A stretch of 31,608 bases of DNA from a virus. Positions 9,746 through 13,191 of the stretch are shown one piece after another. Within the stretch, counting starts at the first letter, position 1, and every line of letters starts with the position of its first letter. The DNA lies in IMG/VR virus record IMGVR_UViG_3300013004_000011, positions 1-31,608 of that record. One strand, given 5' to 3'. The notes beneath the pieces are model-generated. The model ran no database searches. It saw only the letters and a program-made list of their open reading frames with translations, and had not been told where the DNA came from. A program made the position numbers and the translations under genes.

Positions 9746-10517
9746 CATAATGAAAAAAGAAGTTTTCAAACCTCGTTTATTTAACGACCACTTCCAAAAC
9801 TACAAAACGTATGGCATACCAAAAGCCCAGTTAATTATTGCCGACATTCCTTACAACATAGGAAAGAACGCATACGGTAGTAATCCGTCATGGTATGTTG
9901 ATGGTGACAACTCAAACGGTGAAAGCGAACTTGCCGGGAAAGAATTTTTTGATACGGACAAGGATTTCAGGATTAGCGAGTTTCTGCACTTCTGTTCAAC
10001 GATGATGGTTAAAGAACCAAAAGAAACCGGGAAAGCACCGTGCATGATTGTTTTCTGTGAGTTTGAGCAGCAGTTTGAGTTAATACAGAAAGCACCAAAA
10101 TACGGACTGAAAGGATATATTAACCTTGTATTTCGCAAAAATTTCTCAGCGCAGGTGTTAAAAGCAAATATGCGAGTAGTTGGTAACTGCGAATATGGAT
10201 TACTTCTTTACCGTGATAAATTGCCAAAGTTCAACAACAATGGAAAAATGATTTTTAACTGTTTTGATTACCCACGTGATACAGAACGGGAAAAAATACA
10301 CCCAACACAGAAACCAGTTCGTTTGCTGCAACATTTAATTGAGTTGTTCACAGACCCGGGCGAGGTTGTAATTGACCCATGCGCAGGTAGTGGCAGCACA
10401 TTATTGGCAGCAGCACAAACATTCCGCAAAGGTTATGGCTTTGAGATTAAGAAAAACTTTTTTAAGGAAGCCAACGAAAAAATGTTAAAAAATATACAGC
10501 CAAATTTGTTTTTCTAA
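9738..10517 (+). CDS. DNA methyltransferase (beta-class, N6-adenine/N4-cytosine)
   Basis: From ATG 9738 the product is 259 aa; the start overlaps the end of the RMF-like gene, and ATG 9750 is an alternative. The catalytic motif IV is ADIPYNIG (36-39 DIPY), HPTQKP is at 188-193 and the SAM-binding motif I, DPCAGSGS, is at 213-220. This order, catalytic before SAM-binding, is that of beta-type amino-methyltransferases (PF01555). No restriction endonuclease lies nearby, so it is an orphan enzyme that may protect phage DNA from host restriction. DIPY instead of DPPY is a known variation. The target sequence cannot be told from this. Confidence 0.9.
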   Translation: MTNIMKKEVFKPRLFNDHFQNYKTYGIPKAQLIIADIPYNIGKNAYGSNPSWYVDGDNSNGESELAGKEFFDTDKDFRISEFLHFCSTMMVKEPKETGKAPCMIVFCEFEQQFELIQKAPKYGLKGYINLVFRKNFSAQVLKANMRVVGNCEYGLLLYRDKLPKFNNNGKMIFNCFDYPRDTEREKIHPTQKPVRLLQHLIELFTDPGEVVIDPCAGSGSTLLAAAQTFRKGYGFEIKKNFFKEANEKMLKNIQPNLFF

Positions 10518-10536
10518 AATCTTTGTTATATAATTG
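10505..10536 (+). promoter_or_regulatory. Promoter for the R1 RNA
   Basis: TTTG (10505-10508), 20 bases and TATAATTG (10529-10536) match the Bacteroidota promoter with one change in the -7 box. It overlaps the last codons of the methyltransferase gene and predicts a start near 10543. Confidence 0.55.
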
Positions 10537-10542
10537 CATATC

Positions 10543-10672
10543 GGAATAACAGGAATTAGACCCCCTGCCGAGAACCAAGCAAATGAGAAAAAATATAATC
10601 AACACCCACGCGAGTAAAAGGTCGGCTATCTTGGGGCCGGGTCTAACCTTTGAAAGTGTGGGTGTTTTTTTT
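10543..10672 (+). ncRNA. Candidate structured RNA R1 with terminator-like end
   Basis: The spacer after the methyltransferase holds four complementary pairs. TTAGACCC (10556-10563) pairs with GGGTCTAA (10639-10646). GCCGA (10567-10571) pairs with TCGGC (10622-10626). CCAAG (10575-10579) pairs with CTTGG (10630-10634). AACACCCAC (10601-10609) pairs with GTGGGTGTT (10658-10666), followed by a T run. The second and third cross each other, giving a pseudoknot. The fourth crosses the first, so either the fold is knotted or two states compete. The next gene starts right after the T run. It has its own promoter. It does not match any RNA family I can recall. Confidence 0.6.
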
Positions 10673-10882
10673 ATGAATATTTACAAACCCACACCATTAC
10701 CAGTCGCATATTGTGACGAGCAAATCGCAGAACTTGAACTGCGCAAAGAGTATGAAAATTACAGGCGAGAAAATCAGGTCATCACGTTATTACAATGTGA
10801 GTACTTATGGATGAAACTTGACCTGCAAATCATCTATTACAACCAGTGTAAAAAATTAACCTTGAAAGGACAAAAACAATGA
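10673..10882 (+). CDS. Small hypothetical protein
   Basis: I choose ATG 10673 (69 aa), right after the T run of R1; an in-frame ATG at 10583 would place 30 codons across the RNA structure. The product is mainly helical and charged (AELELRKEYENYRRENQ), with aromatic residues in the C-terminal half. The stop overlaps the start of the helicase loader-like gene as ATGA, so the two are coupled. Position suggests a link to replication. No family is recognised. Confidence 0.6.
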   Translation: MNIYKPTPLPVAYCDEQIAELELRKEYENYRRENQVITLLQCEYLWMKLDLQIIYYNQCKKLTLKGQKQ

Positions 10883-11475
10883 GCAAAGACCCAGCATTTC
10901 TTTTTTATTCTAGCGATTTCCTGACCGGAACAATGCTATTGACTATGGAACAAAAAGGAAAATACATTACCCTGCTATGCCTACAACACCAAAAAGGCAT
11001 ACTGACTGAAAAAGATATGTTACAGATATGTGGCACATATGATGAAGATATATTTTCAAAGTTTGTAAAGGATGAAAATGGTAACTACTTGAACGAAAGA
11101 TTGTCTGCGGAAGTTGAAAAACGTAAGGCATATTCCGAAAGCAGGAGAAACAACAGAACCAAAAAAGATATGAATAACATATCTAAAACATATGTTGTAC
11201 ATATGGAAAATGAAAATGAAAATGTAATTGTAAATAAAAAAAGAAATACAAATACAATACCCACACTCGAAGAATTTTGCGAATACGGGATGAAAGGACT
11301 GAAACCCGGTTATCGTTACCCTATTGAAGCCAAATACAATCAATGGGTGGAAGCTGGGTGGGTTGATGGTCACGGCAAAAAGATTAAGAACTGGAAAACC
11401 AAACTTTCAAACACCATCCCATTTTTGAAACCTATGGAAGTTGAACAGGCGAAGGCCATAAAATATTTAGAATGA
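10879..11475 (+). CDS. Replication protein / helicase loader-like
   Basis: The 198-aa product begins with DPAFLFYSSDFLTGTMLLTMEQKGKYITLLCLQH-type sequence, the pattern of Lin1244/DUF1376-like N-terminal domains of phage replication proteins. A low-complexity Asn/Lys/Glu linker (about residues 95-125) leads to a C-terminal part with a YNQWVEAGWVDGHGKKIKNWK segment, common at the end of replisome organisers. It lies directly before dnaB and overlaps its start (ATGA type), as helicase loaders do. The N-terminal domain probably binds DNA and the C-terminal part the helicase; that is inferred from family and position. Confidence 0.75.
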   Translation: MSKDPAFLFYSSDFLTGTMLLTMEQKGKYITLLCLQHQKGILTEKDMLQICGTYDEDIFSKFVKDENGNYLNERLSAEVEKRKAYSESRRNNRTKKDMNNISKTYVVHMENENENVIVNKKRNTNTIPTLEEFCEYGMKGLKPGYRYPIEAKYNQWVEAGWVDGHGKKIKNWKTKLSNTIPFLKPMEVEQAKAIKYLE

Positions 11476-12707
11476 TAGAACAACAAATACTCGGAACATG
11501 GCTGCAAGGTAAGCAGCTGGATTTAACCGCAACGGTACGCAGCGAATGGTTCACCGTACCCAAATATCGCACCCTATGTTTGACCATTCAGGCGATGTAC
11601 CTAAATAACGAACACATAGACAACGTGGCGGTGGTAATGAAGCACCGTGACATGGCAATGGACATCGCAGGGTTAAATAATTACTACACAGGAGAAAGCA
11701 TTACTCGGTTGGTTTCAATGTTGCATCAGGAATACATACGTAAAACCCTGACTATTGACTTGACAAAAATTGTCAATGACCTGACCAACGGAAGTGAAAT
11801 AATGCAGTCCATGTCGGAAGTTCAAAAAACTATTGATGAAATACAACTGAACGAAAACGGACAAGCTGTTGACCTGATCACTCTACTTGGTGACCGCTTC
11901 GACAACTTGGAGAAACGAAGCAAATCCGAAATCAAAACTATTGGATTGCCAACTGGGTTCACCAAATTGGATAAGTACATCGGGGGCTTTGTTCCCGGTG
12001 AAAATGTGGTAGTTGCAGGTCGGCCCGGTATGGGTAAGACAGCATTTGCAGTCAGCATCGGGATTGCCCATGCAAAACTGGGTGGCAGGGTTATAATGTT
12101 TAGCATGGAGATGAGCAAAGAACAACTTGCTGACCGCATACTTTCATCTTTGGGCCGGGTGGACAACCTGAAAGTGAGAAACGCTGATGTGAACGAATTT
12201 GAACTTGAAAATATCGCCCGTGAATTACTGCTGATTGACTACAAATTTCAAATTGAGGACAGCACTATGCTGGACATAGCTCAAATAAAAACCCGAATTA
12301 AGACCATGAAAGTAAAACCCACGCTGGTAATCATTGATTATATGCAACTGGTCAAAAGCACAGGCGGTAAAAACCGGGAGCAGGAAATAGCCAACATATC
12401 CCGGCAATGCAAACTCATTGCCAAAGAATGCGGATGCACCGTAATGCCATTATCCCAACTTAATAGGGGAACAGAGGAAGGAAACAGCCGCCCAAAATTG
12501 GCAAACCTACGAGAGTCCGGTGCCATTGAACAGGATGCCGACACGGTGTTATTCCCTTACCGCCCTGATTACTACGAAGCCCAAAAGAATGGCGGCAATC
12601 CACCTGAACTTGAAGATGCTGAACTCATTATCAGCAAGTGTAGAAATGGAATGACAGGAACGCTGCAATGCAATTTCATGGGTAAAACAGTTGAATATAT
12701 TTTCTAA
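11472..12707 (+). CDS. dnaB: Replicative DNA helicase, DnaB type
   Basis: A 411-aa hexameric 5'-3' helicase of the RecA fold. A shortened N-terminal domain (about 1-130) is followed by GFTKLDKYIGGFVPGE, Walker A GRPGMGKT (183-190), FSMEMSKEQLADR, Walker B VIIDYMQL (286-293), LSQLNRG (328-333) and LRESGAIEQDAD (346-357), with the arginine-finger region following. All motor motifs are intact. It is somewhat shorter than cellular DnaB (about 470 aa) because of the N-terminal domain. No primase or polymerase gene is seen, so the phage must use host enzymes at the fork. Confidence 0.95.
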   Translation: MIEQQILGTWLQGKQLDLTATVRSEWFTVPKYRTLCLTIQAMYLNNEHIDNVAVVMKHRDMAMDIAGLNNYYTGESITRLVSMLHQEYIRKTLTIDLTKIVNDLTNGSEIMQSMSEVQKTIDEIQLNENGQAVDLITLLGDRFDNLEKRSKSEIKTIGLPTGFTKLDKYIGGFVPGENVVVAGRPGMGKTAFAVSIGIAHAKLGGRVIMFSMEMSKEQLADRILSSLGRVDNLKVRNADVNEFELENIARELLLIDYKFQIEDSTMLDIAQIKTRIKTMKVKPTLVIIDYMQLVKSTGGKNREQEIANISRQCKLIAKECGCTVMPLSQLNRGTEEGNSRPKLANLRESGAIEQDADTVLFPYRPDYYEAQKNGGNPPELEDAELIISKCRNGMTGTLQCNFMGKTVEYIF

Positions 12708-12735: not shown

Positions 12736-13191
12736 ATGAGAACACAATTAAAAGCACCACAGCACAACAGCAGGACAACATTTCGCCAAAGTGAAATCGA
12801 CAGAATGAAAGAAGTAATCAGACACCAGCAAATCCGCATCAGGGAATTGGAAACCGTGCTAAAAGTACAGGACATTGACAAGGATGATGAGCATATAAAG
12901 GCCACACACCTTGCAATCAGGTCGGTATTTCCGTACTATCAGCCCGAATTTATCAAAATCAAAGCCCGTAAACGTGAGGTGTTGGAATTGCGGCAGATTT
13001 TCATTTGGATTTTGCGGCATAAAACTTCGTTATCGTTGAAGAAAATCGGTCAATTATGCGGTGGCCGTGACCACTCCACAATGATACACAGCATTGAAAC
13101 GGTGGACAACCTGATGACTTTTGACAAATCATTTGCCCGGAAGGTGGAAGCGGTGAAAAATGCTTATCAAACATTTGCAGAACAGATATGA
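12736..13191 (+). CDS. Stand-alone DnaA domain IV-like DNA-binding protein
   Basis: The 151-aa product has a helical, charged N-terminal part (about residues 15-55, coiled-coil-like). A C-terminal domain follows with LSLKKIGQLCGGRDHSTMIHSIETV (109-120 GGRDHSTMIHSI). This is the DnaA signature that contacts the DnaA box. There is no AAA+ ATPase domain. It could bind the perfect DnaA box in the divergent spacer to direct phage initiation, or compete with host DnaA. It has its own leaderless-type promoter and overlaps the next gene by ATGA. The domain call is firm and the role is inference. Confidence 0.85.
   Translation: MRTQLKAPQHNSRTTFRQSEIDRMKEVIRHQQIRIRELETVLKVQDIDKDDEHIKATHLAIRSVFPYYQPEFIKIKARKREVLELRQIFIWILRHKTSLSLKKIGQLCGGRDHSTMIHSIETVDNLMTFDKSFARKVEAVKNAYQTFAEQI

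Follow-up and report, generated by a model that had tools for sequence, protein, structure and literature searches.

What lies in front of the replication genes of this virus, and how could it act on them? The window, that is, the whole 31,608-base stretch of an IMG/VR record analyzed here, carries tailed-phage genes for a portal, a terminase and a head protease, and also encodes a DnaB-like helicase, a DnaA-type HTH protein, Rad52 and an exonuclease. Family searches among the window proteins tested detected no integrase. The spacer at 10518-10672 has a DNA methylase gene on one side and a 69-codon gene on the other. An initial annotation had proposed that this spacer encodes a structured RNA not described before, with stems that cross and an end resembling a terminator, ahead of replication genes, and the data presented here supported that proposal. 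The genes downstream of the spacer are listed below.

10673-10882, + strand: small ORF, 69 amino acids, first gene of the replication operon
10879-11475, + strand: DUF1376/primosomal-like protein (DUF1376, E=4e-4, below the Pfam cut-off; PHROG primosomal protein, E=4e-5)
11472-12707, + strand: DnaB-like helicase (DnaB_C, E=7e-75)

The product of the small ORF at 10673-10882 had no Pfam or PHROG match and could be placed in no known family. It belongs to a conserved family of proteins of about 64-76 residues (MNIYKPTPLPVAYC...), which opens the replication operon in many phages. Elsewhere in the window, the genes at 12736, 14016 and 14961 begin 4 nt past TATATTTG promoter elements (TATATTTGCANC-ATG), and their transcripts are probably leaderless.

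The spacer had been described as having a promoter of its own, and both elements of a Bacteroidota-type promoter were present.

10505-10536, + strand: Bacteroidota-type promoter (TTTG at 10505-10508, 20 nt, then TATAATTG at 10529-10536)

The -7 element TAnn(T/A)T(T/C)G was matched upstream of the RNA element in 50/50 distinct relatives, and TTG in the -33 zone was present in 48 of them. We infer that transcription starts at about 10541-10543, and the element extends over about 10541-10672. Antisense control from a promoter of the TAnnTTTG type was also considered and was rejected, as the opposite strand of the element lacked one in all 50 relatives; in the next 150 nt, such a promoter was present in only 8/50.

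Relatives were gathered with a covariance model, after a protein search with the DUF1376 product and two pattern scans of the DNA of viral contigs. The data comprised 101 copies in viral contigs, representing 50 distinct sequences, with covariance-model scores of 67 to 158 bits, and a later search added more diverged members (L293, L339-L341, L343, L347 and L348) at 58-63 bits. The element lay immediately 5' of an ORF in 100 of the 101 copies, and this ORF was the first gene of the replication operon each time; the contig of the remaining copy, L098, ends just past the element. The next ORF was the small ORF (about 64-76 codons) in most copies and the DUF1376 gene itself in seven loci, and the helicase gene followed in most loci of sufficient length. 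DUF1376 was not found in some loci that keep the RNA. When 395 Bacteroidota genomes were searched with the covariance model, no convincing host-encoded copy was detected; the sole match (L286, 33.8 bits) was short, AT-rich and at about chance level over 395 genomes, and was discarded. A pattern scan of genome contigs returned 89 stretches, with no real member among them. The RNA is carried by a family of freshwater viruses whose hosts are probably Bacteroidota.

The fold was analyzed in an alignment of the 50 distinct sequences. One architecture fits everything: the loop of a 5' hairpin pairs into the internal loop of a long terminator hairpin, and a linker strand pairs with the apical loop of that hairpin. 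Its parts in the window are as follows.

10541-10544/10568-10571, + strand: P1 of the 5' hairpin, UCGG/CCGA, paired in 98% of cells
10550-10553/10564-10567, + strand: P2 of the 5' hairpin, CAGG/CCUG, paired in 100% of cells
10556-10563 with 10639-10646, + strand: pseudoknot 1, P2 loop UUAGACCC with GGGUCUAA
10575-10579 with 10630-10634, + strand: pseudoknot 2, CCAAG with CUUGG in the apical loop of the terminator hairpin
10601-10611, + strand: terminator stem d, 5' arm AACACCCACGC
10656-10666, + strand: terminator stem d, 3' arm GUGUGGGUGUU, with the U8 run at 10665-10672
10612-10616/10652-10655, + strand: internal loop with GAGUA facing GAAA, unpaired and near-invariant in the alignment
10617-10621/10647-10651, + strand: inner helix e, AAAGG/CCUUU
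10624-10627/10635-10638, + strand: inner helix g, GGCU/GGCC

Thirty-two named base pairs over six helices were tested for covariation. The data showed that 22 of the 32 pairs had changed on both sides, in comparison with 11.6 after shuffling (0/500 shuffles reached 22), that 97.0% of cells were paired, in comparison with 84.7%, and that 173 cells were double-changed, in comparison with 35, while sliding the partners by 1-3 columns reduced pairing to 29-45%; each of the controls used here (shuffling, sliding or swapping) preserves either column composition or relatedness, never both. Covariation was seen in all six helices tested, and independent double changes are too numerous for chance to be tenable as an explanation of the fold. 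In P2, three of the four pairs had changed on both sides (for example CACG/CGTG and GCAG/CTGC), and in helices e and g together this was the case for 9/9 pairs. The seven pairs counted in stem d were paired in 100% of cells, and five of them had changed on both sides. For pseudoknot 1, four pairs had changed on both sides and the seven inner pairs were kept in 50/50 sequences. Since the linker varies in length, pseudoknot 2 was scored outside the alignment columns: in 50/50 sequences the linker pairs with the apical loop over at least 5 bp, and more than 10 different pairing sequences occur, including CCAAG, CAGAG, GGAAG, GGACA, GAAGA and TGTAAG. The mean longest match was 5.78 bp for a sequence's own partners, in comparison with 4.26 when partners were swapped between sequences.

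The terminator hairpin had a fold z of -3.97, and in the window sequence alone the values were only modestly unusual, at -1.66 for the interval of the initial annotation and -2.36 for 10541-10672; it is the comparison of relatives that is decisive. Free-energy folding of four diverged members gave the same two hairpins, with the strands of both pseudoknots in loops. The AGUA/GAA part of the internal loop presumably resembles the loop E (bulged-G) motif, which we name as a candidate only.

The four complementary segments listed in the initial annotation all exist, and compensatory changes well beyond the controls were found for every one of them except GCCGA/TCGGC. The 8-bp pair TTAGACCC/GGGTCTAA was supported by compensatory changes, and the 5-bp pair CCAAG/CTTGG corresponds to pseudoknot 2, found in all 50 sequences. 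The 9-bp pair AACACCCAC/GTGTGGGTGTT was likewise supported and is followed by T8, but it is in fact 11 bp long with one G-U pair. The GCCGA/TCGGC helix was rejected: its score was reached by 80/500 shuffles and its outer pair failed in 18/42 sequences. Its GCCG strand belongs to P1 at the base of the 5' hairpin (TCGG/CCGA), and its CGGC strand belongs to helix g inside the terminator hairpin. The two competing folds that had been suggested are not needed, as the diverged members keep the pseudoknot partners in loops of one common fold. Four helices (P1, P2, e and g) had been missed, and so had a leader ORF.

10583-10882, + strand: leader ORF, 99 codons, AUG at 10583, in frame with the small gene at 10673

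The next gene had been described as starting directly after the T run. An ATG is indeed present at 10673, but the longer ORF from 10583 reads through the hairpin in frame. Its AUG, which lies between the linker strand of pseudoknot 2 and the terminator stem, was invariant in 50/50 sequences, and its distance to the stem was 18 nt in 43/50, 17 nt in four and 19 nt in three; the stretch 5' of the AUG varies in length among the 50. Diversity at the AUG was zero, while the rest of the linker was mostly at 0.4-0.7, apart from an A usually present just after the AUG. Read from this AUG, the frame stayed open as far as the hairpin's end in 50/50 sequences, in comparison with 0/50 and 1/50 for the other two frames, and frame +1 stops at once in most sequences because of the A after the AUG. 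The leader frame runs in frame into the next gene in 43/50, ends at a TGA overlapping the next gene's ATG in 4/50, and is out of frame in 3/50, where it ends 35-44 nt inside the next gene; thus in all 50 the ribosomes would get past the hairpin. On initiation, a ribosome occupies about 15-17 nt past the start codon, so the stem would start just at the ribosome edge. Close pairs of sequences differed by 19 nonsynonymous and 3 synonymous changes in the leader frame, and the frame differs between groups inside the element; therefore, the leader peptide is not conserved, and a peptide with a meaning of its own was rejected. No codon runs and no regulatory codons were found in the leader ORF among the 50 sequences. 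The AUG, the open frame and the spacing form the pattern that translation through the hairpin would require.

On balance, the RNA is probably a cis-acting, translation-coupled attenuator, that is, a leader RNA of the phage replication operon, and our confidence in this reading is moderate. Transcription would begin at about 10541; the 5' hairpin would fold first, followed by the long terminator-type hairpin ending in U8, and the two pseudoknots would fasten the 5' domain to the internal loop and the apical loop of the terminator hairpin. By default, most transcripts would be expected to stop at U8. The hairpin ends 6 nt 5' of the next start codon and should therefore mask it in transcripts that read through. 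The invariant AUG is in the one A-rich stretch predicted to be unstructured, and a ribosome starting there would have its downstream edge against the stem. By translating onwards, this ribosome would disrupt the pseudoknots and melt the hairpin, leading to transcription read-through, to coupled translation of the replication genes, or to both. The act of translation would matter here, not the peptide. The sequence comparison shows the fold, both pseudoknots, the invariant AUG with its open frame and fixed spacing, the promoter-like and terminator-like sequences and the constant genomic position; we infer promoter use, termination at U8, blocking of the start codon, relief by translation and the signal setting the switch, and the RNA looks like an undescribed switch turning viral replication genes on.

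The sequence around the 3' end is consistent with an intrinsic terminator: a GC-rich hairpin is followed directly by U8 at 10665-10672 and by the ATG at 10673, and every related design has a T-rich tract past the 3' arm. However, some of these tracts are interrupted (TTTTGCTTT, TATTTACTTTT), so some of the terminators may be weak, which counts against the attenuator. The AUG could also be conserved for tertiary structure instead of translation.

RNAs of other designs occupy the same slot in relatives that are more distant. In type ii (14 distinct sequences), a 5' strand pairs with a strand of the terminator loop in many versions, such as GCGTACCC/GGGTACGC, GACTATCCG/CGGATAGTC and GCTCGTTCG/CGGACGAGC, and a 13-codon ORF, MK..LNP..TALP, has a conserved start and stop, with its AUG about 18 nt before the stem. 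This second design was seen upstream of DUF1376 at L054, L057, L060, L061, L064, L069, L073-L079 and L081, with a fast-changing pairing and an ORF that ends in Pro-stop. In types iii to vii, a 5' segment, usually a hairpin loop, pairs over 7-8 bp with the terminator loop, and the sequences differ each time. These types have no conserved AUG, so translation cannot be a universal part of the mechanism. Further designs with 7-8 nt pairings were observed at L024, L035, L045, L066, L333-L336, L311, L315, L337, L338, L342, L350 and L365, and the first loops in many further designs read GUNNNAG, with a variable three-base core. The longest match between the 5' segment and the loop exceeded that in letter shuffles over 19 representatives (combined p about 2e-18), which were chosen from a filtered list plus the classes above and are in some cases mutually related. 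A 5' segment is pinned to a terminator loop in several dissimilar folds, which points to a shared mechanism, and the sharing of a promoter, a terminator hairpin and this pairing by unrelated-looking RNAs in one slot argues for the attenuator.

Cultured Flavobacterium phages (lillamy and elemo) and Polaribacter phages (Danklef) have the same layout, unannotated, before a small ORF and replication genes.

L368, 1750-1870: leader in a cultured phage
L369, 1660-1785: leader in a cultured phage
L367, 1015-1130: leader in a cultured phage

The pairs in these phages are GTGAGACG/CGTCTCAC in the lillamy type, TGAGAGC/GCTCTCA in elemo and GGTGGAA/TTCCACC in Danklef. The loop sequence was constant within each group of cultured phages, so rapid change is not universal. 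Since these cultured phages have laboratory hosts, a possible switching of a terminator by loop kissing is directly testable.

Searches against Rfam 15 gave 0 hits at the gathering threshold over the window, in agreement with the initial annotation, which had named no matching family, and permissive searches with the window and four related or analogous leaders gave noise of 10-19 bits. No earlier description was found in the open-licence literature on kissing loops, terminators, phage leaders and structured RNAs. Judged by sequence comparison, the structured RNA is real and previously undescribed, and it is a new RNA family of the attenuating-leader kind outside any Rfam family. Regulatory RNAs of Bacteroidota-infecting phages are little described; the new family, which apparently forms part of a wider class, has a fixed position, as the leader of the replication operon.

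Control of RepZ in IncI/IncB plasmids involves the RepY leader peptide and a pseudoknot between stem-loop I and stem-loop III. This RepY/RepZ leader of IncI plasmids appears closest in logic, since a 5' hairpin loop pairs into a second hairpin and a leader ORF between them reaches the start of the replication gene. However, the element described here has no antisense promoter of the TAnnTTTG type inside it (0/50), a terminator-like U tract, two pseudoknots and a pairing partner inside the hairpin, and it is hosted by a phage; the likeness is one of logic. The IsrK leader of prophage Gifsy-1 has its own terminator, which gives a short RNA and a read-through mRNA, and a coupled upstream ORF (PMC4825925). 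It is similar in being a phage leader with its own terminator-like end and an upstream ORF tied to the next gene, whereas IsrK is enterobacterial, controls an antiterminator and has no reported pseudoknot of such a kind. In the part of the same source that treats satellite phage P4, self-complementary segments in the replication-operon leader (CI RNA, seqA-seqC) control premature termination (PMC4825925). Such segments in the leader of a replication operon are shared with the present RNA, but CI RNA arises by processing of the transcript and its pairing partners are flanking segments, whereas in the present RNA the loops of the terminator itself are paired and the U8 run points to an intrinsic terminator. 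Attenuators of the trp type also have a leader ORF just before or in the terminator hairpin, but here the peptide is not conserved and regulatory codons are absent. No antiterminator helix was seen in the minimum-energy folds of four diverged members.

An unlikely explanation, although one to be taken seriously, is that the terminated 130-nt RNA accumulates as a trans-acting small RNA and, by analogy with known phage RNAs, pairs via its self-complementary loops with the leader on further transcripts of that phage, in which case the variable pairing sequences would set self-recognition. The sharp 5' and 3' ends and the full structure also fit a stand-alone small RNA, which counts against a cis attenuator. 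Both partners of each pairing lie within the same RNA, pairing strands have been replaced on both sides with unchanged flanks (L091 in comparison with L201, and L018 in comparison with L014), and P4 CI RNA and IsrK act from the leader of their own operon (PMC4825925). However, intramolecular pairing should win at ordinary concentrations, and the cultured lillamy/mumin-type phages all have one loop sequence. With no integrase among the tested proteins, classical lysogenic immunity is not indicated. Moreover, the alleles look like mosaic exchange because the upstream DNA is even more divergent: between L018 and L014, the downstream DNA was 99.9% identical, the element 77% and the upstream DNA 57%. 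The constant place before the operon and the invariant AUG with its open frame favor the cis-acting leader over a stand-alone small RNA.

Sharp identity shifts were seen on both sides of the element for L006 in comparison with L005 and for L018 in comparison with L014. Among these two pairs, identical downstream DNA occurred with differing elements, and an identical element occurred with differing upstream DNA. The alleles look as if they had been exchanged between genomes, on mixed evidence.

It is improbable, though analogy suggests it, that a phage replication protein, a ribosomal protein or a host protein governs termination or translation by binding the pseudoknotted RNA, with the AGUA/GAA internal loop as an example of a possible binding site. 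T4 gp32, for instance, acts on a pseudoknot in its own leader. The near-invariant unpaired GAGUA and GAAA and the constant position before the replication operon are consistent with this, but the downstream proteins change (DUF1376 is missing in some loci) while the RNA stays, and unrelated RNA folds occupy the same slot. We consider a metabolite riboswitch whose expression platform ends in the terminator highly improbable: a complex pseudoknotted fold does precede a terminator and a start codon, but no Rfam aptamer matched, few invariant unpaired bases exist beyond GAGUA/GAAA and the AUG, no alternative antiterminator helix is evident, and the folds in the slot differ between related phages. 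An ordinary terminator combined with an N-terminal extension of the small protein, with the structure as a by-product of coding, can practically be dismissed, for although the frame continues into the small gene in 43/50, the peptide shows no conservation, its frame varies from group to group inside the element, the small gene is absent in seven loci, and the compensatory changes in both pseudoknots contradict such an origin. A type III toxin-antitoxin RNA was considered because a terminator lies between the RNA and the gene, and was dropped, the RNA being single-copy and none of the downstream proteins RNase-like.

A broader proposal covers the RNA described here and the other designs together, and we regard it as doubtful: Bacteroidota phages might have a large, structurally diverse class of replication-operon leaders, in which a short terminated RNA senses its own kind and allele-specific, self-complementary kissing loops, located in the 5' hairpin and the terminator, tune termination on other genomes of the same allele. 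If such self-sensing were true, it would be a control of copy number or superinfection built on a terminator and not on an antisense transcript. At L032, L034, L047 and L063, where no RNA was seen, an HNH endonuclease-like ORF with a VNHKDGNKLNN-type motif takes the leader's place upstream of DUF1376.
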